From a virus: a stretch of 20,040 bases of DNA. Shown here piece after piece: positions 4,458 to 19,632 of this stretch; the stretch's first letter is position 1, and the number at the start of each line of letters is the position of its first letter. The translations under genes and the position numbers were made by a program. The DNA lies in IMG/VR virus record IMGVR_UViG_3300012984_000041, positions 1 through 20,040 of that record; one strand, 5' to 3'. The notes beneath the pieces are model-generated. The model made no database searches. It was given only the letters and a program-made list of their open reading frames with translations, and had not been told where the DNA came from.

Positions 4458-4808
4458 TTACGTTTCGAGATAAGCGATAGCTTTCTCAAATAGAGCCTTA
4501 CTATGTCGCAAGCCTCCGATTGCTCGATTGCATTGCATACAAAGCAGTCCACGAATACGGTTTGTGCCGTGACAATGATCGACAGCCAGAGCGAGAGTTC
4601 TACCTCGGATAGCTGCGGTCTCTGGCAATTCACAGATTGCGCAAACGTAATTTTGCTTCTCAAGCAAGGCGATGTATTCCGCCTCGTCCATTCCGTAATG
4701 CCTCCGGAGATCAATTTTTTTCATGATCTCCGGATTTAGTTTCCGGTATTCCCGCATGTAAGCAGCCCATTCTTCTGGGTGCGTTTTCCTACGAGAATTA
4801 ATAGACAT
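4458..4808 (-). CDS. Endonuclease VII-type HNH endonuclease
   Basis: 116 residues from the ATG at 4808, which overlaps the capsid stop as TGATG; a TTG one codon upstream is less likely. 'LRRHYGMDEAEYIALLEKQN' at residues 34-53 is the recognisable lead-in of the recombination endonuclease VII family. It is followed by CAIC (56-59), the DHCH active-site motif (77-80), RIRGLLC and CMQCN (residues 85-94), giving the two CxxC zinc pairs and the metal-binding His/Asn. The family includes T4 gp49 (junction resolvase) and many free-standing homing-type nucleases. Placement between the major capsid gene and its small partner, where no nuclease is needed for assembly, favours a mobile homing gene; a resolvase role in packaging remains possible. 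Confidence 0.88.
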   Translation of the reverse strand: MSINSRRKTHPEEWAAYMREYRKLNPEIMKKIDLRRHYGMDEAEYIALLEKQNYVCAICELPETAAIRGRTLALAVDHCHGTNRIRGLLCMQCNRAIGGLRHSKALFEKAIAYLET

Positions 4809-5716
4809 CAAGCGCCAGCAGAGCCGTAAATGCCGAGCGGATCGGACCAGCCAAACGAGTAGCGTTCGCGCGCCTTGTAGCGGGCGTTGCCGGTCTCGAA
4901 GTCAGTGTCCATACCCGTCTTCAGCGGTGCGCGCTGGAACATCTTCAGGCCGTTCGGAACGTCGGTCGTCAGGAACCATGCGTCGGTATCGGTCAGGTAG
5001 TGGTTGATCCGGTACCCCTGCGGGATTGCGCCATTGTTCTTCAGGGCGTTGATGTCGTTGTCAGCCGTCGATACGCGCTGCGCTGTTTCCAGAATGCGGG
5101 TAGCTTCGAACTGAAGGGACGGCGGGATGATCAGCTTGACCGGGCGAGCCGCGATCAGAAGACCACGTTCATCCGTCCATGCTGCAATATCGATAACCGC
5201 ATTTTCAAGTGCGGTCTCGTTGAGGTCAGACGCCACAGTCGGGATGTTGCGGTTGGTGCCGCCGCCGACGAGAGGGTGGGCGTTGCTGAACAGTGCGACA
5301 CCGTCACCACCGGTAAAGGAACCGGAGAAGCCGTTGTTGAGCACCGATGCAGCCTTGACCTGCTTGGTATAGGCCATACCGCGAGCGAGAGCCTTGGTAT
5401 AACGAGCCGACAGCTGATCGTAGAGATTGTCTTCGATTGCTTCTTCGGTGATCGCAAAGCCCATCGCAATCGTCTCGTGGACGTAGCGGGCGGTCCATGC
5501 TTCCTGCGCCGTGTCATAGCTGATGGCCTGACCTTCGAGCTTTACAGGAGCAGCACCGAAACCGGAGAGCTTCTGTTCTTCTTCGAAGGAGCGGTCCGAC
5601 GTTTCCGTGGTGAAGATTTCACCGTGTTCTTCGTCGTAACGCTTGTATTCAAGCCCGAACAACTTGTTCAGACCCGGCAGAAGCTCTTTAAAGAGTTGCG
5701 CGCGTGAAATAGGCAT
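4808..5716 (-). CDS. Major capsid protein (HK97-fold)
   Basis: 302 residues; ATG with AAGGAG seven bases upstream, the strongest ribosome site in the region, fitting high expression. The sequence shows the pattern of Mu gpT-like / HK97-fold capsid proteins. It has an N-terminal arm starting MPISRAQLFKELLPGLNKLF, an extended loop with 'YKRYDEEHGEIFTTETSDRS', a long helix with 'ARYTKALARGMAYTKQVKAA', a 'LFSNAHPLVGGGTNRN' segment (about residues 141-156), 'LIIPPSLQFEATRILETAQR', and a C-terminal 'ARERYSFGWSDPLGIYGSAG'. It follows the GroES-like, scaffold and head genes, the normal order in such phages. No protease gene or cleavage site is evident. Confidence 0.9.
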   Translation of the reverse strand: MPISRAQLFKELLPGLNKLFGLEYKRYDEEHGEIFTTETSDRSFEEEQKLSGFGAAPVKLEGQAISYDTAQEAWTARYVHETIAMGFAITEEAIEDNLYDQLSARYTKALARGMAYTKQVKAASVLNNGFSGSFTGGDGVALFSNAHPLVGGGTNRNIPTVASDLNETALENAVIDIAAWTDERGLLIAARPVKLIIPPSLQFEATRILETAQRVSTADNDINALKNNGAIPQGYRINHYLTDTDAWFLTTDVPNGLKMFQRAPLKTGMDTDFETGNARYKARERYSFGWSDPLGIYGSAGA

Positions 5717-6344: not shown

Positions 6345-6800
6345 CTATTCTTCCGAAGCACCCTTGCCAAAGGTGGTGCGTGACCGGCGCTCGGGCTTCA
6401 ACATCGGCATCCGAGGATCGCTTTCACGAAGGTAATTGTTGTCAACAGATGTCATCTGCTGCTGGGCACGGTCAGCGTAGTACTCGTTGCGAGCCTTCAC
6501 ATTTTCCGTGGAGTTCTTGCAGAGCAACAATCCGCCGACTTCTACACCAGCTTCGAACTGAGAGTTACGGTCAGACACAATCTGCAATTCAGGGTGGTCT
6601 TTCGCATTGACAGGGACCCAGCCTTCACGGAACCGGGCCGAAACATTCTTGTTATCGGACTGGCCACGGGACCCGACACGCACCCAACGGAAGGAAACAC
6701 CTTCCTGCGGATCGGGAGAGGGAAGCAAAGACGGCGGGGTCCAAGAGGTCTTCCGTGCCTTGGCCGAACGGGTTTCGGTTTCGCGCGTAGAATTAGCCAT
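6345..6800 (-). CDS. Conserved virion-module protein, unknown function
   Basis: 151 residues. The ATG at 6800 overlaps the end of the scaffold gene by eight bases. The N-terminus is basic and polar; the core has 'VSFRWVRVGSRGQSDNKNVS' and 'RFREGWVPVNAKDHPEL', then 'GVEVGGLLLCKNSTENVKAR' and a helical tail 'NEYYADRAQQQMTSVDNNYL'. Proteins of this type are recurrent between scaffold and capsid genes in podoviruses that also carry a GroES-like gene, but I know of no described function. An assembly factor or minor head component is a fair guess. The stop is followed by a 32-bp gap to the next gene. Confidence 0.8.
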   Translation of the reverse strand: MANSTRETETRSAKARKTSWTPPSLLPSPDPQEGVSFRWVRVGSRGQSDNKNVSARFREGWVPVNAKDHPELQIVSDRNSQFEAGVEVGGLLLCKNSTENVKARNEYYADRAQQQMTSVDNNYLRESDPRMPMLKPERRSRTTFGKGASEE

Positions 6801-7791
6801 GGGTCCATTCCTTCTTGCCGCTCTCGGCGGTCAACTGTTCTGCATATTGCTCAAGCGTCAGACCAAGACGCCGAGCGAGGTGCGCTTGACTTTGTGTCAG
6901 CGTTACTTTTCGCGTTGCTTTCGACTGTGAACGCACAGCCCCGGCTACAACGGTTTCCGTCCGACGTGGCGTGGTGGTCTGCTGGAAACGCTCTGGGAAG
7001 CGCTTGTGCATTTCACCATCGATACGACGGTAGTATTCATCCCCATCGGAGGGGAGAATGCCTTCGCGGTTGACCAGCTGTTGATGAACCCCCAGCGCAA
7101 AGGCTGTCATGGCTTCATCGCGGCCAAACCACTTGTTCTTGCCCTGCCATTCGACGGCAGCTGCTTCAGGCTCTGCCTGCTGCTGCGGCGCTGGCTGGGT
7201 GAAACGACCGAACTCCCGCTCATCCATCCGCTGCAATGGCTGCGGGCGATGGGTCGAAAGCCTGTCCTTTTCAGCGACCAGCTTGGCGAGGTTTTCCTGT
7301 GCGGCGATTTCGCCGTTGATATCCCCCGCATCGCGCGCTTCACGAAGCTGCATCTTTGCGGCGTTGATCTGACCGGCAAGACGGCCTTGGCTCTCAGTCA
7401 TGAGAACCTTTTCGCCGTTTTCGATCAGCCCCTTCAGGGCATTATTCTCAGCAAGGATACGCTTGGACAGCTCGGCCAATTCGGTCAGCTGACGTTCGCG
7501 GTCTTCCTTGGCGCGGCGTTCGGCGTGAACCTTGGCCGTTTCCTTGGCGATGCGATCCTTGACGCGCTTCGAATACGCGGCCTGTTCGTCATCACCCTCG
7601 TCAGTGGACTTTTCGTCCGCCGACCATTTGCCCCGGTCTGCCTCCGGAGTATCGTCAACGATAGAGACCTCGACCTGATCGTCGTCCGACTTGTCTTCCT
7701 TTTGGGAAGACTTGTCGTCACGAAAGACCGGGAGATCATCCTTGACTTCGAATTCATCGAATTCCTGATCCAGCATATTCTTGCCAGCCAT
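6793..7791 (-). CDS. Capsid scaffolding protein
   Basis: 332 residues. The start overlaps the GroES-like stop by one base (TGATG). The composition is typical for a scaffold. The first ~75 residues are strongly acidic (FDEFEVKDDLPVFRDDKSSQ and more Asp/Glu runs). Residues ~77-190 are a predicted long coiled coil rich in Ala, Glu, Lys and Arg (IAKETAKVHAERRAKEDRER). A Pro/Gln-rich linker (QPAPQQQAEPEAAAVEWQGK) follows, and the C-terminal part is basic, with a helix ending LEQYAEQLTAESGKKEWTHG. In the P22/T7 model a basic C-terminal helix contacts the capsid protein. Position two genes before the decoration/capsid pair supports the call. Identification rests on composition and order, as scaffolds share little sequence. 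Confidence 0.85.
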   Translation of the reverse strand: MAGKNMLDQEFDEFEVKDDLPVFRDDKSSQKEDKSDDDQVEVSIVDDTPEADRGKWSADEKSTDEGDDEQAAYSKRVKDRIAKETAKVHAERRAKEDRERQLTELAELSKRILAENNALKGLIENGEKVLMTESQGRLAGQINAAKMQLREARDAGDINGEIAAQENLAKLVAEKDRLSTHRPQPLQRMDEREFGRFTQPAPQQQAEPEAAAVEWQGKNKWFGRDEAMTAFALGVHQQLVNREGILPSDGDEYYRRIDGEMHKRFPERFQQTTTPRRTETVVAGAVRSQSKATRKVTLTQSQAHLARRLGLTLEQYAEQLTAESGKKEWTHG

Positions 7792-8150
7792 CAGTATGCC
7801 CTTTCAATGATGCGTGGATCGTCAACCACGGCCTCGACAGTATCGTCATTGATCAAGCGGTACTCGACACCTTGGACCTTCATCCGGGTACCAGAGTAAG
7901 ACTTGAAGATGACCCAATCGCCTACTTGGCACCACGGGCCAGACGGAAACTTGTCCGGATCGGAATAGGCTTCCGCGCCCATATCGATCACGCATCCATA
8001 GATGCTGGCAGTTTCTTCGGCTTTGCGTAGCGCTTCAGGGATGATGACGCTGCCGATCTTCTCATCCTTTTTGGGGATGGCGATCATAACTTTATAGCCC
8101 TTGGGCTGCGGCAAGCTGATCCCTTCTGGGACCTCTACCGGGAGAGACAT
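7791..8150 (-). CDS. GroES-like co-chaperonin
   Basis: 119 residues; ATG with GGAG eight bases upstream. The protein aligns by eye with GroES over its whole length. 'KGYKVMIAIPKKDEKIGSVI' (18-37) covers the first beta strand and the mobile loop, with IGSVIIP (32-38) at the place of the chaperonin-contacting hydrophobic triad. 'YGCVIDMGAEAYSDPDKFPS' lies at the roof region, 'CQVGDWVIFKSYSGTRMKVQ' (74-93) corresponds to the VGD-V-F--Y-GT-V--DG core, and 'YRLINDDTVEAVVD' ends the fold. It would replace host GroES on GroEL to fold the capsid protein, as T4 gp31 does. It leads the scaffold/capsid operon, which fits. The N-terminal 17 residues are an extension relative to GroES. Confidence 0.9.
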   Translation of the reverse strand: MSLPVEVPEGISLPQPKGYKVMIAIPKKDEKIGSVIIPEALRKAEETASIYGCVIDMGAEAYSDPDKFPSGPWCQVGDWVIFKSYSGTRMKVQGVEYRLINDDTVEAVVDDPRIIERAY

Positions 8151-8151
8151 G

Positions 8152-8165
8152 CGTGGAACTCCACG
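8152..8165 (-). promoter_or_regulatory. Inverted repeat covering the groES ribosome-binding site
   Basis: Read on the minus strand, CGTGG-AGTT-CCACG forms a small 5-bp hairpin (or a 14-bp near-palindrome CGTGGAGTTCCACG) just upstream of the ATG at 8150. The GG of the GGAG Shine-Dalgarno lies in the stem. It could lower or tune initiation at the co-chaperonin gene. It may also be chance, as it is short. Confidence 0.4.
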
Positions 8166-8182: not shown

Positions 8183-8213
8183 AAAAAACCCCTCTCGGGC
8201 CGGGAGGAGGGGT
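8183..8213 (-). terminator. Intrinsic terminator in the leader of the groES/capsid operon
   Basis: On the minus strand ACCCCTC pairs with GAGGGGT across a 12-base GC-rich loop and is followed by TTTTTTATTT. It lies downstream of the promoter at 8256-8285 and about 33 bases before the groES ATG. It would stop transcripts coming from the terminase/portal operon and also those starting at the local promoter, unless these are antiterminated. Confidence 0.85.
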
Positions 8214-8255
8214 GCGAGAAGGGCTTTTATAGGTCCTGCGAAAGGTACCGATTGT

Positions 8256-8285
8256 AATATACAGATACGCTTGACAGTTCGTCAA
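8256..8285 (-). promoter_or_regulatory. Sigma70-like promoter with inverted repeat over the -35
   Basis: Minus-strand TTGACG (8280-8285), an 18-base spacer and TATATT (8256-8261), preceded by CTG. The -35 is the left arm of TTGAC-GAACT-GTCAA (8271-8285). The predicted start of transcription is near 8249; no ORF lies between it and the terminator at 8213-8183. The same inverted repeat sits at the other candidate promoter at 13650-13678. Confidence 0.6.
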
Positions 8286-8312: not shown

Positions 8313-8507
8313 TCAGTCTTCGTCCTCGGCACCGATAAGATATTCGGTAACCATCTCCTCGATTATCTCGATCAGCTCGACCTGATCACACAAGGACTTG
8401 TACTGCTCTATGCTACTCGCCAGACCCCGAAGGAGTTGGTTTCTTCGAGCTTGCTTTAACTCGTTCAAGTGATAGAGAATGCTCTCGTTCTTTTTCGTTC
8501 TCTGCAC
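8313..8507 (-). CDS. Small acidic helical protein after the portal gene
   Basis: 64 residues from a GTG at 8507, overlapping the portal 3' end by 95 bases in another frame. The first 30 residues are basic (MQRTKKNESILYHLNELKQA), the rest is a predicted amphipathic helix with a very acidic tail (VELIEIIEEMVTEYLIGAED). Small coiled-coil proteins directly after the portal are usual in related phages. The GTG lacks a strong Shine-Dalgarno, so the true start could lie further in. No clear ATG gives an alternative before 'EEM'. Function unknown. Confidence 0.5.
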   Translation of the reverse strand: MQRTKKNESILYHLNELKQARRNQLLRGLASSIEQYKSLCDQVELIEIIEEMVTEYLIGAEDED

Positions 8508-11091: not shown

Positions 11092-13590
11092 TCAGTAATA
11101 CCTTTTTCTGGGACGGTATTGTTCGTCACGCCACTCGTCGTTTTCATTGATGAGCCAGCCACCCTGACGGAACCGATACATTGCCATAGTGACTGTATCC
11201 ACGTAGTCATCATGTTCGCCTGCTGGGAATGCTGCGCATTCCTCGATCACTTCTTCTGCCCACCGCTTGCTCATCGGCGCATAGACATTACCAGATGCGA
11301 AGATGTCTGTAACAGAATTGATGCGACTGATTTTGTCATTCCCCTGACCAATGGCACCCCGACCAACCGTGACTTCCTGTATCGGAATGCCCATGGCGCG
11401 GAGTTCGTAGATCAATGGCTGGCCGGTTGCGCGACCTTCAATCAGGCAGATATCTGGTTCATGCTGCTGGTAGAGTTCCAGCGCCTTGCGCTTCAGCTGC
11501 GGGAATTCCCACTTGCCGCGTTCTGCATCCAGAAGGATGATATTGTTCCGGCCTGTCTCTTCATTCTTGAAGATGCCCCATGTGGTGCAGGCGGAATAGT
11601 CTGATCTGGTACCAGTGGTAAACGCAGTATCCCAAGACTGCACAATCACGTCGCACTTCGGCGGCTTGGTTGACTTCCAGTCCTGCCACATGGCCCGCTT
11701 GATCAGTGCGCCCTCTTCCGAGGTCGGTTGCTGCTGATACTGAGCGTTCCACTTCGAGACCGCCATGGAATTCTTGGTGCGAAGGAGTTCTTCCATCTTC
11801 CAGAATTCGGGCCAGAGCGGACGTTCAGCCAGTCCCTTCTCTTCATTGGCGGGCATGATGGCCGGAAGCTCGATCACTTCCCATTCGTCGGAGCCGGGTG
11901 TGTTGATCTGTTTCTTGATCAGCTGGCCGGTCAGGTCTCTCAGCGACCAGCGGGTCATCACCACGATAATCGCGGCACCCGGTTGAAGGCGCTGGCGAGG
12001 CCCCTGCTCATACCAGTCCATCACCTTGGTGTAGATTTCCGGGTTGTATTCGCCTTGGATAGCGTCTTGTTCGGAATTATGGGTTACGACATAGCCTTCC
12101 CCGGCGAGGAAAAGACCATCTTCGCGGTCCACCGTGATGCATTGCACGGAACCGTATGTTCCGGTCTTCTGGACGGTGATACTGCGGCAGCGCTTGTCTG
12201 TCGGGGTGTAGGTGTATTGGTTCTTGCGCGGCATGAGCGCCGCCTTATGCATCCTGAACATCACGCGGTAGACGCGCTTGGCGCTGCCCCACCGGCTTCT
12301 CTTGTCGTCGGCCCAGCGCATCGTTGCCTTGACGCCGAGAGAATGAAGAAGCTGGACGACTGCCTCGACCAAAGCCTTGTTCGTATTATAGAACCCGCAC
12401 TGGCCGTTTTTCAGGACAGTACCGTCTGTGTCCATCATCCCCTGAAGAAGGGCGGTGCGCTGGTCTATCGATCCCCGCAAGTACAATTCCGGCACATGCT
12501 TGTTATTCAACAGGCCTGCGTCGATAAGTTGCCGACGAAGACCCCTAACGCCAAAGCTGTATTCGTCCGCGAGATCGGTCACCTCGTATCCGCGTCTTGT
12601 AAATTCACCGACCATGTAGGCCCGGTCATCGGGATGGCATGTCATCCTTCCCAGAGATGAAGTTCCATCACCAAGCCATGCCCCAAGAACCCAAGGATCG
12701 ATGGGAAGCTCTGCGTCAGGGTATGCGACAGGGAAATGGCGCGGCAGGCAGGGCTTGGACGACTTGTTCCATTCAGACAGTTGTTCGGTTGTGAATGTCG
12801 CATCGTTTGCAGAAAGCTTTGTGTCGGATCGCACCGTCCACAAATGCTTGCTGTCGCAGAGGATTTCCTGACCATCATCGGTCAGTACCGAGTAAAGCTC
12901 CCGATCATGCCAGATATCGGACTTGGCAATGATCTTGGTCGTCTCTCCGTCCGGACCGAAAACCTCGTCACCAACCCTCAAATCCTTGATCGCCACAAAT
13001 CCTGACGGCGTCGGGATGGGAGTACCGACCTCCAAGGCGTGTGGGTCATCGATGATGAACAGGTCAGCGCCCTTACCGGCGACGGCACCGTTGACGCCGA
13101 CAGCGAAATATTCGCCACCGCGATTGGTGGCCCAACGGCCTGCGGCCTTATTGTCCGCTGACAGTCTGACGCCGGGGAACAGTTCCTGAAAATCCTTGCG
13201 GTCGATCAGGCCTCTGACCTTACGACCGAAACCCACCGCAAGTTCTGCGGTGTGCGAGGCCATCATCACCTTTTTCTCAGGGGCTCGCCCCAAGAAGTAT
13301 GCGGGCAGGTGGATGGAGGCAAACTCGGATTTGGTATGCCGTGGCGGCATGTTTATGATGACGCGCTTCTTCTTGCCAGCGATCACCTCATCGAAGAGGT
13401 TGGCCATCTTCTTATGATGTGCGCCGTCGATGAAGCTCGGCCACATGTAATGGATGAAGGGCAGGAAGTTCTGGGTGGCTTCCTGCTTCGCCTTGGCGGT
13501 GTCCAGCTTCTGCATCAATGTGAGCAGAGCTTTCTGTTCGCTCGGGGGCAGGAGCGCGATCTGCGGCAGGTATTTTGCTAGATCGTCCAT
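11092..13590 (-). CDS. terL: Terminase large subunit with in-frame class 3 intein
   Basis: 832 residues; removal of the intein (185-505) leaves a 511-residue terminase, a normal length. N-terminal ATPase: 'INMPPRHTKSEF' (79-90) is the Walker A-type motif of this terminase family, 'LFIIDDPH' (177-184) is Walker B, and 'VVMTRWS' (543-549) is the coupling motif. The C-terminal RNase H-like nuclease shows D654 in 'SWDTAF', E718 in 'LIEGRATGQP' and the D794-D795-x-x-D798 cluster in 'EHDDYVDT'. The protein cuts concatemers and drives DNA into the prohead through the portal. The intein sits right after Walker B, so unspliced protein would be inactive. Start codon ATG at 13590 has a poor Shine-Dalgarno. 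No small subunit gene is recognisable in the window. Confidence 0.95.
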   Translation of the reverse strand: MDDLAKYLPQIALLPPSEQKALLTLMQKLDTAKAKQEATQNFLPFIHYMWPSFIDGAHHKKMANLFDEVIAGKKKRVIINMPPRHTKSEFASIHLPAYFLGRAPEKKVMMASHTAELAVGFGRKVRGLIDRKDFQELFPGVRLSADNKAAGRWATNRGGEYFAVGVNGAVAGKGADLFIIDDPHALEVGTPIPTPSGFVAIKDLRVGDEVFGPDGETTKIIAKSDIWHDRELYSVLTDDGQEILCDSKHLWTVRSDTKLSANDATFTTEQLSEWNKSSKPCLPRHFPVAYPDAELPIDPWVLGAWLGDGTSSLGRMTCHPDDRAYMVGEFTRRGYEVTDLADEYSFGVRGLRRQLIDAGLLNNKHVPELYLRGSIDQRTALLQGMMDTDGTVLKNGQCGFYNTNKALVEAVVQLLHSLGVKATMRWADDKRSRWGSAKRVYRVMFRMHKAALMPRKNQYTYTPTDKRCRSITVQKTGTYGSVQCITVDREDGLFLAGEGYVVTHNSEQDAIQGEYNPEIYTKVMDWYEQGPRQRLQPGAAIIVVMTRWSLRDLTGQLIKKQINTPGSDEWEVIELPAIMPANEEKGLAERPLWPEFWKMEELLRTKNSMAVSKWNAQYQQQPTSEEGALIKRAMWQDWKSTKPPKCDVIVQSWDTAFTTGTRSDYSACTTWGIFKNEETGRNNIILLDAERGKWEFPQLKRKALELYQQHEPDICLIEGRATGQPLIYELRAMGIPIQEVTVGRGAIGQGNDKISRINSVTDIFASGNVYAPMSKRWAEEVIEECAAFPAGEHDDYVDTVTMAMYRFRQGGWLINENDEWRDEQYRPRKRYY
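12076..13038 (-). mobile_element. Class 3 intein with LAGLIDADG homing endonuclease in terL
   Basis: A 321-residue insert between H184 and S506 of the host protein. It starts A-LEVGTPIPTPSGFVAIKDL, so residue 1 is Ala, not Cys or Ser, and it ends VVTHN before Ser+1. The class 3 triplet is visible: Trp251 in block B (SKHLWTV), Cys484 in block F (SVQCITVD) and Thr503 in block G (VVTHN). In class 3 inteins the block F Cys makes the first nucleophilic attack. Two LAGLIDADG motifs, 'VLGAWLGDG' (301-309) and 'LLQGMMDTDG' (381-390), keep the Asp residues expected of an active nuclease. The reading frame is intact and the catalytic residues are present, so splicing and homing both look possible. Confidence 0.93.
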
Positions 13591-13599
13591 GTCTCAGAC

Positions 13600-13628
13600 A
13601 AAAATAAAGCCGCCCATGAAGGCGGCTT
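13600..13628 (-). terminator. Intrinsic terminator in front of terL
   Basis: Minus-strand stem AAGCCGCC / GGCGGCTT (8 bp, positions 13607-13614 and 13621-13628) with a six-base loop and a following TATTTTTG. It ends the small-gene operon and lies only about 15 bases after the predicted start of the promoter at 13650-13678, ten bases before the terL ATG. Confidence 0.88.
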
Positions 13629-13649: not shown

Positions 13650-13678
13650 AAACTACAGGAGGTTGACTTTACTGTCAA
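13650..13678 (-). promoter_or_regulatory. Candidate late promoter of terL with inverted repeat over the -35
   Basis: Minus-strand TTGACA (13673-13678), a 17-base spacer and TAGTTT (13650-13655). The -35 is perfect and the -10 weak, as expected for an activated promoter. TTGACA starts the inverted repeat GTTGAC...GTCAAC (arms 13674-13678 and 13663-13667 plus flanking base, six-base centre). The stop codon of the 13675-13968 gene lies in the upstream arm. This arrangement is shared with 8256-8285. Confidence 0.5.
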
Positions 13679-15311: not shown

Positions 15312-15753
15312 TTTTCATCTCCTTGTATGCGTGAACATAAAAAGCAAAGTTCACGTGTTTTCTGATTTTGCGTTGAATATAAAGTTCGTCCATGAGCACG
15401 GACAAGCCGCACTCGGGACCACCATACGACCTCTGCCAGTACGCGCTGAACGGGTAGCCATCCAACTCTATCTTGAAGAGGGTATCCCCCACTTGTTCAG
15501 ATAGTGGTAGACCCGTAATTTCGACCAGCGCGGCCTGCCAATGGGCGAGCGCCTCTTCGGGAACCTCCCTTCCTTTTCGAGAAACCTGATCCTCGAAGGT
15601 GACAGCTTCACCAGCTTCGACACCTCCGTCAAGGTCAAGGTGACGACCTTCCGAGACCTTTTTACTTTCAAAGTATGCAGCTCCTCTCCATGGAAACTTA
15701 ACTTCCGGTCTTCTCTCTGATCTTAGATTTATACTTCTTTTATACCTGCTCAT
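15289..15753 (-). CDS. Hypothetical protein, member of the small-protein array, with an ORF nested in another frame
   Basis: 154 residues from the ATG at 15753, which has AGGA six bases upstream and overlaps the previous stop. N-terminus 'MSRYKRSINLRSERRPEVKF' is basic; the C-terminal third 'IELDGYPFSAYWQRSYGGPE' and 'YIQRKIRKHVNFAFYVHAYK' has the aromatic/basic style of the neighbouring paralogues. The middle (roughly residues 32-90, Gly/Glu/Val-rich) coincides with the AlpA-like ORF 15468-15671 in another frame and looks like its shadow. Possible readings: one long gene with a nested gene; or a start at the GTG 15492 for the C-terminal part only; or an indel. I cannot decide from one sequence. 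Confidence 0.55.
   Translation of the reverse strand: MSRYKRSINLRSERRPEVKFPWRGAAYFESKKVSEGRHLDLDGGVEAGEAVTFEDQVSRKGREVPEEALAHWQAALVEITGLPLSEQVGDTLFKIELDGYPFSAYWQRSYGGPECGLSVLMDELYIQRKIRKHVNFAFYVHAYKEMKNAERDDK
15468..15671 (-). CDS. AlpA/excisionase-like helix-turn-helix protein (nested ORF)
   Basis: 67 residues from a TTG at 15671 with GAGGAG nine bases upstream. The match to the AlpA/MerR-type winged helix is clear by eye. 'LTLTEVSKLVKLSPSRIRFL' is the HTH, 'EKEGRFPKR' carries the conserved E-G-[RK]-FP, and 'GRPRWSKLRVYHYLNKWG' gives the G-R-x-RW....V..YL..W wing and end. Such proteins regulate or direct excision in mobile elements. It is wholly contained in another frame of 15289-15753. 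Its fit to a known fold makes it likely that this frame is the translated one in the overlap. Function in this phage is unknown; transcription control of the operon is plausible. Confidence 0.6.
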   Translation of the reverse strand: MKVKRSRKVVTLTLTEVSKLVKLSPSRIRFLEKEGRFPKRRSPIGRPRWSKLRVYHYLNKWGIPSSR

Positions 15754-16030
15754 TGGATTTCCTAGCTGACTGCGCGTCGGGGTGGTGCCATTCTCCGTTC
15801 GCCAGTCTGATATGTCTCTCCCATCGGTATCTGCCGCCAGCATCCTGCTTCGATGGGGGTCTGTGGAAGTAGAATTTTGAGTACCAATTGGGGTAATAAT
15901 AGGTGATGACATAGTCGGGCGAGAAGCCCATCGCCATGATGATTGGCACCAGACTGGTGTTCCACTTCATCGGCTTGCGGCGGCGAGCCAGCGAATAGAA
16001 CCTGTCCCTGTCCAAAGCGCTAAGCTTCAT
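15740..16030 (-). CDS. Small paralogue-array protein (RKPMK ... WY ... GEW)
   Basis: 96 residues; ATG overlaps the previous stop as ATGA. It has 'RFYSLARRRKPMKWNTSLVP' near the N-terminus, 'DYVITYYYPNWYSKFYFHRP' in the middle and 'GRYRWERHIRLANGEWHHPD' at the C-terminus. These match in order the RK-x-x-K, WY and R..R...-[AL]xG-x-W blocks of the genes at 16027, 16834 and 17085. Composition is basic and rich in Tyr, Trp and Phe. No known domain, no signal peptide, no membrane segment. Function unknown. Confidence 0.72.
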   Translation of the reverse strand: MKLSALDRDRFYSLARRRKPMKWNTSLVPIIMAMGFSPDYVITYYYPNWYSKFYFHRPPSKQDAGGRYRWERHIRLANGEWHHPDAQSARKSNEQV

Positions 16031-16287
16031 TCCTCCATTTCCTTCACGTCCGGTTTAATCCAAGCGCCATATGCATAAGAATAGGTGCGCCGCCCCCGGG
16101 TTATGGTCGCTCCCTTGAACCGCTCATGTTTGAACTCGATATACCATCTCAGCTCATCCGGCACGTCGGCGGGATAGAGCCGGATGAACACCTTCGTGTG
16201 GATCACGCAATGCAGGTACATCAGGCGGGCCCCGGTGTTCTTGAGAGGCTTTCTGTGGGCGATCATTTGAAGCATCCGGGTGATCAT
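16027..16287 (-). CDS. Small paralogue-array protein (RKPLK ... WY ... YAYGAW)
   Basis: 86 residues from the ATG at 16287, chosen because it overlaps the preceding stop as ATGA; the frame is open further upstream. 'MITRMLQMIAHRKPLKNTGA' holds the RKPLK motif, 'LYPADVPDELRWYIEFKHER' the WY block, and 'RGRRTYSYAYGAW' the C-terminal signature. It is the clearest representative of the family together with 16834-17088. It ends with a short acidic tail. Unknown function; probably cytoplasmic and basic, so nucleic-acid or protein binding is conceivable. Confidence 0.75.
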   Translation of the reverse strand: MITRMLQMIAHRKPLKNTGARLMYLHCVIHTKVFIRLYPADVPDELRWYIEFKHERFKGATITRGRRTYSYAYGAWIKPDVKEMEE

Positions 16288-16589
16288 GTTTCCGTCTCTT
16301 TCGTGTCCAAAGAGGTTATCCTCTCGCCCCAAAGTATTTCGAGATGACGGGAGGCATAGTGCCGGGAACATCTGGGAAGCCGGACATGCTTAAACAGCCG
16401 GTACCAGTTAAACCCATGGTGATACATATAATCAAACCAGTTCAGCCGCTTGAACGGACGGAAGTCAGCGGCCAGTTCCCATGCTTCATGCTTGCGGCGT
16501 TTCAACTTCTTACGGTAGCACAACAGACCGAAATGCTGCCTTTCTGCGTTCTTGCGCATCAGCTTTAGCCTCATATCATCTCTGGCCAT
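16284..16589 (-). CDS. Small paralogue-array protein (divergent member)
   Basis: 101 residues from the ATG at 16589, which has GGAGG eight bases upstream; the ATG at 16574 would give the ATGA overlap seen in neighbours. Very basic: 'LCYRKKLKRRKHEAWELAAD', then 'RPFKRLNWFDYMYHHGFNWY' and 'RHYASRHLEILWGER'. It keeps the R-K...K, WY and Y..R...-WG-x pattern but is more divergent, with a longer N-terminus. No known domain. Confidence 0.7.
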   Translation of the reverse strand: MARDDMRLKLMRKNAERQHFGLLCYRKKLKRRKHEAWELAADFRPFKRLNWFDYMYHHGFNWYRLFKHVRLPRCSRHYASRHLEILWGERITSLDTKETET

Positions 16590-16837
16590 GTCCCCTGCCT
16601 CCATCCATAAATCAGCGCGATCTTGCGTCTGATTTGCATATTCCTGCCGCGCAGGACCCTGACGGTGATCATCCGCTCATGCCAGAGACGATCCTTCCGC
16701 TGCATCGAGTAGTAATTAGACGACAGGTCATCCATCGAGGACGCGCATTTGCTATCGCCCTTATGGGCCAGTTCGTAAGACCGAAAGCAGTCAACCTTTA
16801 GTCGCTTCCTGTCCCGGATGAAGAAATTTTGTCTCAT
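16571..16837 (-). CDS. Small paralogue-array protein (RDRKRLK ... YGWRQGTW)
   Basis: 88 residues; ATG at 16837 overlaps the previous stop as ATGA and has GGGAG seven bases upstream. It reads 'MRQNFFIRDRKRLKVDCFRS', 'DDLSSNYYSMQRKDRLWHER' and 'RNMQIRRKIALIYGWRQGTW'. The N-terminal RK-x-LK and C-terminal Y-G-W-x-x-G-x-W match the array consensus. Two Cys are present (residues 17 and 34), with no metal-binding pattern. Function unknown. Confidence 0.72.
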   Translation of the reverse strand: MRQNFFIRDRKRLKVDCFRSYELAHKGDSKCASSMDDLSSNYYSMQRKDRLWHERMITVRVLRGRNMQIRRKIALIYGWRQGTWPEMI

Positions 16838-17088
16838 ATCGATGCTCCCATGCGCCATTCCCCATAAGCATGCTGGTAAGTCCGGGTTGCCCGACTGCCT
16901 CTGGCGATAGGCGTGTGAAACCGCCATTGCTTCAGGCCTTGGTACCAGCCAAAGACATCAACGTCCATGTCCACCTTCAGCTCCAGACGCAGCTGCATCA
17001 CTCGTCTGGAGACACCGCGATCCATCTTCTTTGGCTTCCGGTTGTGATAAAGAAGGCCGGTCAGGAAGCGTTCTTCATAATTCCTCAC
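16834..17088 (-). CDS. Small paralogue-array protein (RKPKK ... WY ... YQHAYGEW)
   Basis: 84 residues from a GTG at 17088 that overlaps the previous stop as GTGA and has GGGGGA seven bases upstream; an ATG at 17103 gives five more residues but has no ribosome site. It reads 'YEERFLTGLLYHNRKPKKMD', 'MQLRLELKVDMDVDVFGWYQ' and 'RATRTYQHAYGEW'. The three family blocks are all clear. Start uncertain, gene secure within the array. Confidence 0.72.
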   Translation of the reverse strand: MRNYEERFLTGLLYHNRKPKKMDRGVSRRVMQLRLELKVDMDVDVFGWYQGLKQWRFHTPIARGSRATRTYQHAYGEWRMGASI

Positions 17089-17342
17089 AGCCACGTCCCC
17101 CATGCATACCGAATACAGTTCATCGCCCTTGCTCTGCCATGACCATGGAAGCGCCTCTGCTTGTTCATAAGGTACCAGTCGATAACATCACACGGAACAT
17201 CTTGGAGGTCGCACGTCCTGATTTCGCGATCCATCAGATTGAAGCTCTGGCGGATATTCAATACCTTCATCTTGCGGGCCTTCTTGATGGCGTAATAACG
17301 GAAGTAGGTGGGGAATTGCTGTACTTTTTGATCGTACATCAC
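17085..17342 (-). CDS. Small paralogue-array protein (ARKMK ... WY ... RYAWGTW)
   Basis: 85 residues from the GTG at 17342 (GTGA overlap with the previous stop, GGAGG seven bases upstream); the next codon is an ATG and could serve instead. It reads 'FPTYFRYYAIKKARKMKVLN', 'LQDVPCDVIDWYLMNKQRRF' and 'RARAMNCIRYAWGTW'. 'DVP..-[LV]..WY' is shared with 16027-16287, and 'RRFHG' resembles 'ERFKG' there. Function unknown. Confidence 0.72.
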   Translation of the reverse strand: MMYDQKVQQFPTYFRYYAIKKARKMKVLNIRQSFNLMDREIRTCDLQDVPCDVIDWYLMNKQRRFHGHGRARAMNCIRYAWGTWL

Positions 17343-17761
17343 TTCTCTTCCTCCGTGAGGCCATACCCAACCTGCCTGACGACATATTGGACATAGGAAT
17401 ATGTCAATATTTTCAGGGGCTTGCGTTCGGTCAGGACATCACCCAACCGGACATTGAAGCGACCATGCTTGGCACCAAAACCAGCTATCTCGGTGAACTC
17501 CTTGATGGCAAACGGGAAGCTATAGAGGGCAACGTCATCCCCATCCCCGTTATAGGTCAATATGTCCGTAGGCTGGAATTCCTCTCTTTCGCCATAGATG
17601 ATCCGCACCGCAGGCTGGGTGTAGACCTTCAGATATTTACGGGAGTGAAGAACCTTATCATACCCATAACCATAGGCCATCTGGTCCACCGAGGGTTCCT
17701 TGAGCAGATCAAACGCATATCCGATCTGGGCAGGCATGCTTACGTGATTAAATTGCAGCAT
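17339..17761 (-). CDS. Larger member of the small-protein array
   Basis: 140 residues; ATG with GGA nine bases upstream, after a 25-bp gap. It contains two RK-x-[LK]-K motifs: 'DKVLHSRKYLKVYTQPAVRI' (about 35-54) and 'RLGDVLTERKPLKILTYSYV' (about 104-123), ending 'QYVVRQVGYGLTEEEK'. Between them is a Tyr- and Asp-rich stretch (EFQPTDILTYNGDGDDVALY). It may thus combine two family-like halves. No known domain. Stop overlaps the next start. Confidence 0.68.
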   Translation of the reverse strand: MLQFNHVSMPAQIGYAFDLLKEPSVDQMAYGYGYDKVLHSRKYLKVYTQPAVRIIYGEREEFQPTDILTYNGDGDDVALYSFPFAIKEFTEIAGFGAKHGRFNVRLGDVLTERKPLKILTYSYVQYVVRQVGYGLTEEEK

Positions 17762-17786
17762 ATCTATTTTCCACTTTAGCGGACGG

Positions 17787-17996
17787 CTAACTTGCCCACC
17801 TCACCCAGACAGTGAACCACGAGATATTCAACATCAGCGAAACCAGACCGGCGATGACAATCACCAGTATCCCGCTATCGCCCTGTACATGGGACTTAGC
17901 GAGGGAAATAATCTTCAAGTTCGCTAGAACGATCCCTGCCATAATTACGGAGACCAAGAGAATAGAATAGATGAGTTGCGAGAGTTCTTGTGACAT
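17787..17996 (-). CDS. Small two-helix membrane protein
   Basis: 69 residues; ATG with an AAGGAAG-rich leader. Two strongly hydrophobic segments are visible: 'LIYSILLVSVIMAGIVLANL' (about 8-27) and 'GILVIVIAGLVSLMLNISWF' (about 42-61), joined by a short polar loop (KSHVQGDS). This is a clean two-transmembrane layout. It is the only membrane protein in the array. It overlaps the 17896-18339 gene by 101 bases in another frame. Holin-like or an inner-membrane effector are both possible; no lysin gene is nearby to favour a holin. Confidence 0.6.
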   Translation of the reverse strand: MSQELSQLIYSILLVSVIMAGIVLANLKIISLAKSHVQGDSGILVIVIAGLVSLMLNISWFTVWVRWAS

Positions 17997-18339
17997 TCTT
18001 CCTTACCTTCCTTGCCTGATAGAGTTCATCATAAGATTTGAACGGGTTGCTTCTTCTGTATTCAACCCGCATTGCCAGTGACCGGGACTGGAACGTCTTG
18101 TCGCCCGCTTTGTCATAGTCATAGAAGTAGATCGGGGGATAGTTCTCTGGCACCCGAAAGAAGTGCATGACAAACTCTTCCCGGTAAACCTTCTTGCCTT
18201 TCCGGTGCGTGTAAAGCCCATCGAGACGTTCCAGAAGTGCAAACTGTAAAGCATCCTCATCATACACCATGAGCGGCAGATGCTGATTGAAGGCACAACA
18301 AACCCGGGGTCTATGACAAAATCTTATCTTTCCCGTCAT
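17896..18339 (-). CDS. Small paralogue-array protein (HRKGKK ... YFYDYD)
   Basis: 147 residues from the ATG at 18339 (ATGA overlap; the frame is open further upstream but would run into the previous gene). 'LDGLYTHRKGKKVYREEFVM' with 'HFFRVPENYPPIYFYDYDKA' parallels 'LISRRKVLKRYHLKFVRHYF' and 'ETRGEVEFDYLEP' of the 18336-18782 protein, and 'DELYQARKVRKNVTRTLATH' parallels 'SVYHVRKRHKVITKKWIGN' there. The two are therefore likely paralogues of each other. The last 33 codons overlap the membrane-protein gene. Function unknown. Confidence 0.68.
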   Translation of the reverse strand: MTGKIRFCHRPRVCCAFNQHLPLMVYDEDALQFALLERLDGLYTHRKGKKVYREEFVMHFFRVPENYPPIYFYDYDKAGDKTFQSRSLAMRVEYRRSNPFKSYDELYQARKVRKNVTRTLATHLFYSLGLRNYGRDRSSELEDYFPR

Positions 18340-18782
18340 TTCGTCCGCCCCTTTCGCTTGGGAAGTTCGGGGCGCATAACCCCCCTTATCAGGTTGCCTA
18401 TCCATTTCTTCGTGATCACCTTATGCCTCTTCCGTACATGATAAACAGAAGCGGCCCGATACATATACCTGCTGGGGACCCCCGTATTCTCACCGATCCG
18501 AGACGACAGGGAGAAGTTCTCTACCGATGCGGCCGATCTGATGACGGGAGGTTCCAAGTAGTCAAACTCCACCTCACCCCTCGTCTCGAAATAATGTCTG
18601 ACGAACTTCAGATGGTATCTCTTCAGGACCTTGCGGCGGGATATGAGGAAGTCCGCATAATCCAGAAGGCGATATTCAGCGGTATTGGGCGGGAGGTCAT
18701 AGACATCCTCCATATGCACATCATCAGCACGGGTCTTGCCGATGCGATGTGGAAAGGGGGTGTATTTGTCGAGTGGGTTCAT
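18336..18782 (-). CDS. Small paralogue-array protein (RRKVLK ... FDYLEP)
   Basis: 148 residues from the ATG at 18782. No Shine-Dalgarno precedes it; instead a 7-bp stem hairpin (18785-18816) abuts the start, so translation may be weak or controlled, or the true start lies inside. It reads 'LLDYADFLISRRKVLKRYHL', 'KFVRHYFETRGEVEFDYLEP', then 'YMYRAASVYHVRKRHKVITK'. Similar to the next gene (17896-18339), which suggests duplication. First gene of the array. Very basic C-terminus (PKRKGRTK). Confidence 0.68.
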   Translation of the reverse strand: MNPLDKYTPFPHRIGKTRADDVHMEDVYDLPPNTAEYRLLDYADFLISRRKVLKRYHLKFVRHYFETRGEVEFDYLEPPVIRSAASVENFSLSSRIGENTGVPSRYMYRAASVYHVRKRHKVITKKWIGNLIRGVMRPELPKRKGRTK

Positions 18783-18856: not shown

Positions 18857-19303
18857 CTATGTCACCTCCTGATATGTCTTACCTGCAAATATGGCGCTTA
18901 TAGAGCCTTGATGGACGCCAAGCTCTTTGGCTATTTCTGTATGATTTTTGAAGCCAAACATAGAGCGCACATAACGCACTTGTTCATCCGTCAAAAGACG
19001 CTGCCTACGGTGCTGCGTCCCATGAATAATACGATCACCTTGGTTCTCTTCCGGAGTGGCCCATCTGACGTGAGCATGGTTAATGCAGGAAGGGTTCCCG
19101 CATCTATGTGCCGCCTGATGAGTATCGGAAGGAGCTTCCCCGTGGACAAGATAACAGACAAGACGATGCGCTGGCCAAACGAAGTCCATATATAAAACGC
19201 GCCCATATCCACGAGCTTTTGCATACGGCCATATGATGCATTCGTCTGTGATCGCCTCAAGGTGAGACATCAAAAACTTTAAAGCCTCCCCACGAGCAGC
19301 CAT
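18857..19303 (-). CDS. HNH homing endonuclease (HNH_3 type) with C-terminal helix-turn-helix
   Basis: 148 residues; the ATG overlaps the previous stop as TAATG. 'FVWPAHRLVCYLVHGEAPSD' (41-60), 'AAHRCGNPSCINHAHVRWAT' (64-83) and 'PEENQGDRIIHGT' (84-96) form the HNH_3 fold: H46, H66, C68/C73, N75-H76 and N87 are the usual residues. A second domain, 'LLTDEQVRYVRSM' to 'HTEIAKELGVHQGSISAIFA' (about 103-140), is a DNA-binding helix-turn-helix typical of such intron- or intergenic nucleases. It sits between the regulator and the small-gene array, a typical place for a selfish nuclease. A 74-bp gap follows. Confidence 0.9.
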   Translation of the reverse strand: MAARGEALKFLMSHLEAITDECIIWPYAKARGYGRVLYMDFVWPAHRLVCYLVHGEAPSDTHQAAHRCGNPSCINHAHVRWATPEENQGDRIIHGTQHRRQRLLTDEQVRYVRSMFGFKNHTEIAKELGVHQGSISAIFAGKTYQEVT

Positions 19304-19572
19304 TATTTGTTCGCCTCCATGTGTACGCGCAGAACATCCTGCATCCGCACCTGCCAGCCGGGGCCGGTCGAACGGAACCAGTCCAGCACATCGTCATCCA
19401 AGCGGATATTCGTGCGGGCCTTCGTTTTCGCTTTCCGTTTGGTCGTCCCGAAGAACTCGTCAGCCCTCTGGCTTTTTATGTCGAGCGCCTTCACTGCGAT
19501 CTCCCGTTTTTCGCTCGGTGTCTCAACGGGCTTTTTGACCGGTGTCTGGGGGGAACGATATTCGATTGCCAT
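19303..19572 (-). CDS. BrnA-like antitoxin / ribbon-helix-helix regulator (no BrnT partner seen)
   Basis: 89 residues from the ATG at 19572, chosen for its GGAG; an upstream in-frame ATG at 19632 lacks one. The C-terminal part 'TNIRLDDDVLDWFRSTGPGW' and 'QVRMQDVLRVHMEANK' (54-89) matches the BrnA antitoxin signature [IT]-x-[IL]RLD-DVL-WF...G.G[WY]Q.R...VLR..M. The N-terminal half is polar and Lys-rich. BrnA neutralises the BrnT RNase toxin and represses its own promoter. No BrnT-like ORF is found in the bases upstream or in the next gene. An orphan antitoxin could protect the phage against a host toxin-antitoxin system, or simply regulate this operon. Confidence 0.78.
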   Translation of the reverse strand: MAIEYRSPQTPVKKPVETPSEKREIAVKALDIKSQRADEFFGTTKRKAKTKARTNIRLDDDVLDWFRSTGPGWQVRMQDVLRVHMEANK

Positions 19573-19585
19573 AATATGTCTCCGT

Positions 19586-19605
19586 GTGTGCCTTAAGGGG
19601 CATAC
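19586..19605 (-). promoter_or_regulatory. Candidate operator of the BrnA-like gene
   Basis: Inverted repeat on the + strand: GTGTGCC, a six-base centre TTAAGG, and GGCATAC, with one mismatch between the arms. It abuts the candidate -10 and covers the expected transcription start, 14 bases before the ATG. This suits autorepression by a ribbon-helix-helix protein. Confidence 0.5.
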
Positions 19606-19632
19606 TACAAGGCATCCGGATTTGAAATGCAA
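19604..19632 (-). promoter_or_regulatory. Candidate promoter of the small-gene operon
   Basis: Minus-strand TTGCAT (19627-19632), 17-base spacer, TGTAGT (19604-19609). Each box has four of six consensus bases. The upstream stretch is A/T-rich with several A and T runs (about 19633-19675), like an UP element. No other candidate is as well placed for the operon that begins at 19572. Confidence 0.45.

Follow-up and report, generated by a model that had tools for sequence, protein, structure and literature searches.

A palindrome-bearing promoter and a proximal terminator before the groES-capsid operon of an uncultured phage clade: a candidate control leader for late genes

When a promoter is followed directly by a terminator and only then by the capsid operon, either read-through of the terminator is controlled or the short RNA is itself the product. 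This arrangement is found in an uncultured phage. The window analysed is the 20,040-base IMG/VR virus record IMGVR_UViG_3300012984_000041, itself a fragment, whose late genes all lie on the minus strand in the order terL, portal, a 64-aa gene, groES, a scaffold-position gene, two small genes and the major capsid gene (Table 1). An earlier note on this DNA had placed the first head gene directly after the terminator; that place belongs to groES, and the scaffold-position, small and capsid genes come behind it. By portal, the nearest isolates (33-46% identity) are 50-65 kb phages of Pelagibacter, Roseobacter, Caulobacter, cyanobacteria and others, and in the isolate phages inspected with groES near the portal gene, groES sits close behind a small gene without the promoter-terminator leader of the window.

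On the minus strand the region reads TTGACGAACTGTCAAGCGTATCTGTATATTACAATCGGTACC..., then GCCCTTCTCG(loop)CGAGAGGGGTTTTTT, and then the groES start codon. The promoter consists of TTGACG, an 18-nt spacer and TATATT, and the coordinates bear out the arrangement that had been described earlier, in which TTGAC-GAACT-GTCAA lies over the -35 hexamer and a six-T terminator precedes the operon. The earlier count of TTGAC-N5/6-GTCAA, at just two points in 20 kb, also holds, as the window has exactly two such sites, before groES and before terL, versus 0.03 expected, and two sites occurred in no shuffle. A generic promoter score is uninformative alone (12 sites in the window versus 12.2 expected), and the weight of the promoter call therefore lies on conservation and not on that score. 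A CTGTA supposedly shared at the -10 was rejected as a conserved element, since the relatives show GAGATATATT, TGGCTATATT and CAACTATATT there.

Table 1. Positions of the features discussed (window coordinates unless a contig is named)
Feature	Position	Strand	Remarks
-35 hexamer TTGACG	8280..8285	(-)	doubles as left arm of the palindrome; invariant in four independent relatives
Inverted repeat TTGAC-GAACT-GTCAA, putative regulator-binding element	8271..8285	(-)	over -35 and proximal spacer; arms identical in 4/4
-10 hexamer TATATT (8261-8256) plus AC	8254..8261	(-)	invariant TATATTAC
Predicted terminated leader RNA, 67 nt	8183..8249	(-)	no ATG inside; start 8249 inferred from -10
Intrinsic terminator, GCCCTTCTCG...CGAGAGGGG hairpin and six T	8183..8224	(-)	hairpin 8224-8189, T 8188-8183
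Small hairpin CGTGGAGTTCCACG	8152..8165	(-)	folds; holds GGAG ribosome-binding site; directly before groES start codon
groES co-chaperonin	7791..8150	(-)	PHROG 3188, E = 2.6e-11; first gene of capsid operon; ATG at 8150
Scaffold-position gene	6793..7791	(-)	phrog_28737, unknown function; second in operon; precedes capsid gene
Major capsid protein	4808..5716	(-)	phrog_371, E = 3.8e-21
64-aa gene between portal and leader	8313..8507	(-)	counterpart in L004 and L110
Second palindrome copy TTGACAGTAAAGTCAA, upstream of terL	13663..13678	(-)	arms extend to GTTGAC/GTCAAC; consensus -35; poor -10
Intrinsic terminator between second copy and terL	13607..13628	(-)	9 pairs, 6 GC, then TATTTTTG
67-aa helix-turn-helix protein (MerR/excisionase type)	15468..15671	(-)	Pfam MerR E = 7e-6, just under cut-off
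Pseudoknot RNA loci	L111:9883-9950, L113:2669-2736, L176:5737-5804, L306:3949-4016, L326:3713-3780, L340:7884-7951		
Pseudoknot RNA locus in L323	upstream of groES		

Relatives were sought by protein searches of IMG/VR with the portal, capsid, groES and terminase proteins. The subclade comprises L003 (identical), L004/L109 (groES 79%, capsid 90%), L110 (67%, 89%), L269 (64%, 83%) and L188 (capsid 88%), and the contig of L188 stops short of the leader and is not counted below. Four independent members have the region, namely the window with L003, L004 (equal to L109), L110 and L269 (groES 64-100%), and these were found through portal or groES searches; L269 surfaced first through the DNA pattern and then by groES similarity too (as L272), making its inclusion independent of the motif. 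Searches with terminase, portal and scaffold proteins gave no further close relatives beyond L003 and L004, and none in bacterial genomes. The composite TTGACG-N4-GTCAA-N9-TATATTAC is present in all four members, 117-136 nt before groES, where it reads TTGACGAACTGTCAAGCGTATCTGTATATTAC, TTGACGTCAAGTCAATTACAGAGATATATTAC, TTGACGTGAAGTCAACTGCATGGCTATATTAC and TTGACGGATAGTCAATAGGCCAACTATATTAC. Over the 18 positions of TTGAC, GTCAA and TATATTAC the mean pairwise identity among the four leaders is 1.00; it is 0.40 in the central five, 0.24 in the nine before the -10, 0.27 upstream and 0.28 downstream, so that the flanks and the distal spacer are at chance level. The probability of an invariant GTCAA at fixed spacing in four otherwise random spacers is about 1e-8, ignoring shared descent. 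In L004 the small gene on the portal side is separated from the leader by an inserted 531-aa gene that is absent from the window (L004:4043-5638), and the leader remains with groES.

An exact match to the composite is found in four IMG/VR stretches, each of them this locus, and in none of 84,980 bacterial and archaeal genomes (257 Gb), where about two would be expected by chance. The element was found neither in the 181 other family members nor in about 160 mostly more distant loci from capsid-protein searches. A looser pattern, TTGAC-N5/6-GTCAA-N7-10-TATATTACA, is found in 19 stretches of IMG/VR, most of them at unrelated AT-rich phage promoters before tRNA genes and small early genes, and these are consensus promoters and not the same system. 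Exact palindromes in L075, L083, the L121 group and L126 lie inside genes and were treated as chance, and near-matches elsewhere in the subclade contigs are in coding sequence. The earlier note would have given up its reading if the motif lay at many unrelated sites or was missing from the same position in close relatives; for the groES copy neither was found. GTCAA stays invariant where the rest of the spacer is randomised, and the composite is confined to this locus; together these strongly suggest that the capsid operon has a DNA-binding regulator dedicated to it.

The terminator is also kept in all four leaders, in a different way. Those of L004/L109, L110 and L269 lie in the same place as that of the window and are unrelated to it in sequence; each of the four independent leaders has its own GC hairpin (-15.1 to -17.6 kcal/mol) followed by four to six T, and the transcript is predicted to end at nt 63-73 after the inferred start in every one. 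The family comparison covered 185 non-redundant loci that extend 200 nt or more upstream of groES; a terminator-like hairpin is present in the last 150 nt before groES in five, namely the four and L316, which is to say in 4/4 loci with the element versus 1/181 family loci without it. Fisher's test gives 1e-7 for this association, a value that overstates independence, as the four are one clade. Outside the element the four leader loci have diverged to chance level. On this comparison the terminator is conserved as a function and not as a sequence, and selection appears to act on the DNA element and the terminator and not on the leader RNA sequence, because both are kept while the flanks, the spacer and the leader RNA are at chance identity.

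The combination of a promoter with an embedded element, a terminator and then a late operon resembles several known systems. Three DNA-loaded antiterminators, 21Q, AlpA and GafZ, have their element between the -35 and the -10, with a terminator downstream (PMC6606751, PMC9371919, PMC11150451). As at PR' of phage 21, lambda and 82, where Q acts, the window has a late promoter with an embedded regulator element and a promoter-proximal intrinsic terminator before a late operon, and no ORF between (PMC6606751). In the phage 21 element (QBE), TGAGCA is repeated directly inside the spacer, with the terminator downstream (PMC6606751); the repeat in the window is inverted, and the -35 itself forms its left arm. 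The window leader, of about 65 nt, differs from the Q systems also in that a pause element is not clear and the regulator is putative, and in that it would control groES and the capsid genes instead of the entire late region beginning with lysis. In Pseudomonas aeruginosa, AlpA at PalpB likewise uses an element between -35 and -10, followed by a terminator, and is DNA-loaded (PMC9371919, PMC7969949); its ABE, unlike the palindrome here, is a single GGGACG half-site, and no AlpA-like protein was seen in the window. GafZ of Caulobacter, a protein with a sigma-like HTH, acts at the gene-transfer-agent promoter through a near-palindrome in the spacer and bypasses a terminator in a capsid-type cluster (PMC11150451). 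The near-palindromic promoter element and the capsid-type genes are shared with the window; however, the GafZ palindrome GCGCCCG-CTGGCGC falls entirely within the spacer, the terminator comes after the first gene, and the Caulobacter system also needs IHF and GafY (PMC11150451).

We consider that the leader is a control leader of the capsid operon, most likely by DNA-loaded antitermination of the Q/AlpA/GafZ type, an explanation to which we give about an even chance. A conserved DNA word in the promoter is the signature of these antiterminators, and in all four leaders a sigma-70 promoter carries the embedded element between or over the -35 and -10 and an intrinsic terminator stands close to the promoter, before the first gene. 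Host RNA polymerase would start at TTGACG-N18-TATATT, and if unmodified would stop about 65 nt on at the terminator, so that groES and the capsid genes would remain silent. A later-made phage protein could then bind TTGAC-N5-GTCAA and load onto polymerase still near the promoter, and the loaded polymerase would travel past this terminator and later ones. The element, its place in the promoter, the terminator and the joint conservation and uniqueness of these are shown by the comparison; activity of the promoter, binding of the element by a phage protein and an effect through antitermination rather than control of initiation are what we infer. Hexamers of the A2/T6 type, -10-like, are found in the initial transcribed region (+1 to +11), starting at +3, +6, +3 and +1; they are weak and have no fixed position (chance 0.012, post hoc), and a sigma-dependent pause element is weakly indicated. 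One point against antitermination is the overlap of the palindrome's left arm with the -35 itself, a layout seen more typically in repressor operators than in a QBE of the lambda type. The genes examined in the 20-kb fragment yielded no protein resembling Q, AlpA or GafZ, the genomes of relatives being 50-65 kb.

If the short RNA were instead the product, the leader would be a gene for an RNA of about 65 nt acting in trans on host or phage mRNAs, as the earlier note had allowed. Its statement that no ORF lies between promoter and terminator was correct: no ATG stands between the predicted start and the terminator in any of the four leaders. A terminated transcript of the proposed size is likewise predicted in each of them, the RNA from the inferred start in the window folds at -26.5 kcal/mol (z = -3.25 versus shuffles), and in lambdoid phages late transcripts that terminate early can function as sRNAs. 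However, neither a conserved RNA seed nor a conserved structure was found among the relatives; leader RNA similarity is mostly at the level of shuffled sequences (five of six pairs at z of 0.0-1.4, one at 3.1), the four share no 5' structure or hairpin, an Rfam search matched no family, and the conserved part is a DNA word in the promoter. A small-RNA gene is therefore improbable in our view, a base-pairing function is unsupported, and a sequence-specific sRNA appears unlikely. Since the four leaders hold neither an ATG nor a conserved RNA sequence and match no Rfam family, antitermination read from RNA (nut, put), a riboswitch and a leader peptide are disfavoured as well on the sequence comparison; ahead of the terminator none of the four has an ORF or a conserved RNA element, and on testing the small-RNA, riboswitch and leader-peptide readings were unsupported.

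The main rival is control of initiation, in which TTGAC-N5-GTCAA would be the operator of a dimeric repressor (or activator) and the terminator would be partial, or would mainly block read-through from the portal operon, enough polymerase passing for the capsid genes. The palindrome spans the -35 and the proximal spacer, the classical repressor position, its conserved arms with a free centre are typical of dimer operators, and CI/Cro-type phage operators are similarly dimeric inverted repeats covering -35 and spacer; a conserved inverted repeat overlapping the promoter, found here, does not alone discriminate between an operator and antitermination. A MerR/excisionase-type HTH gene is present in the window, with GAGGAG upstream of its TTG start, and its 67-aa product is the only candidate DNA-binding regulator seen there, any tie to the palindrome being speculative. 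Yet the terminator downstream of the promoter is kept in 4/4 leaders despite sequence turnover, which makes little sense for an on/off promoter, a terminator for the preceding operon should stand ahead of the promoter, and the simple CI/Cro-type design has no terminator directly downstream of the controlled promoter. We regard an operator with a leaky terminator as a serious possibility, if on balance a somewhat unlikely one. Far less probable is an ordinary strong sigma-70 promoter with a spacer palindromic by chance and an unrelated terminator adjoining it. In its favour, the -35 consensus TTGAC already supplies one half of the palindrome, a generic promoter score does no better than chance, and the looser motif with TATATTACA is also met at unrelated phage promoters, such as those before tRNA genes; the invariance of GTCAA at its fixed spacing and the absence of the full composite elsewhere already contradict this reading.

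Returning to DNA-loaded antitermination, we propose tentatively, as a rather doubtful extension, a new antiterminator family unrelated to Q, AlpA and GafZ, which would recognise a palindrome of the -35 word and gate the groES-capsid operon, and possibly the terminase-portal operon, in an uncultured podovirus-like clade. TTGACG-N4-GTCAA-N9-TATATTAC with its terminator is a testable cis-element for late-gene control in a large environmental phage group. If antitermination is true, the element could be used as bait for a new antiterminator, and a mechanism so far described in few model systems would gain a palindromic example.

The terL side repeats this design in part. The palindrome and a terminator are both present upstream of terL, whose ATG is at 13590; a clear promoter is missing, however, as the only -10 is TAGTTT at N17, and the same promoter design at both sites, as had been claimed, is thus half borne out. 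The contigs of all close relatives begin inside or after terL, so the share of the terL operon in the proposed common regulator rests on one genome, while the capsid-operon half of that proposal is the strongly suggested one. Of 89 terL upstream regions, L178 and L185/L186 alone gave a further exact palindrome (N7), and the promoter geometry there is different. Upstream of terL in these two distant relatives (L178:2204 and L186:4545) there is a conserved GTTGAC-N7-GTCAAGTC...GCTAACAT block followed by a GC-rich hairpin, which is possibly another late leader.

Much of the wider family has a different RNA in front of groES. The 5'UTR there is compact and in most loci forms a hairpin (CGTGGA..TCCACG) and then an H-type pseudoknot, in which the loop GTGA of an AGGC/GCCT stem pairs with a downstream TCAC; variants are AGCG/CGCT with CTGGA/TCCAG, GGGT/ACCC with GTGGC/GCCAC, and ACCG/CGGT with GAGGG/CCCTC. 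Across an alignment of 19 sequences, 100% of cells in the pseudoknot helix are paired and three of its four pairs show changes on both sides; the whole hairpin-pseudoknot structure pairs in 88% of cells versus at most 77% for slid partners. An Rfam search gave no match, nor did a search of an isolate-phage collection with one pseudoknot sequence, and the RNA is possibly a new cis-regulatory element of capsid and chaperonin expression. The small hairpin before the groES start codon in the window has likenesses in L109 (CGTGG-AGCG-CCACG) and L110 (CGTG-GAGA-CACG), not clear in L269, and it may, as speculation, be a remnant of the first stem of this family RNA. In L111, near where the capsid gene is expected, positions 13421-13471 match the Rfam Mu-gpT-DE RNA (RF03012, E = 1e-10).

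Other observations concern the remainder of the window. A BrnA-type antitoxin (Pfam PF14384, E = 1.5e-15) is encoded at 19303-19632 (-), and no BrnT toxin was noticed within the fragment. TerL (11092-13590, minus strand) contains an intein-like insert at about residues 183-507, which starts ALEVGTPIPTPSG, ends VVTHN/S and includes a LAGLIDADG-like LGAWLGDGT motif; this insert is absent from the TerL of L004. Positions 15740-18782 (-) hold an array of small proteins, mostly unannotated, several of which are detectably paralogous: 16027-16371, 16834-17103 and 17085-17342 with one another (E about 1e-5), and 17896-18405 with 18336-18782 (E = 5e-4).
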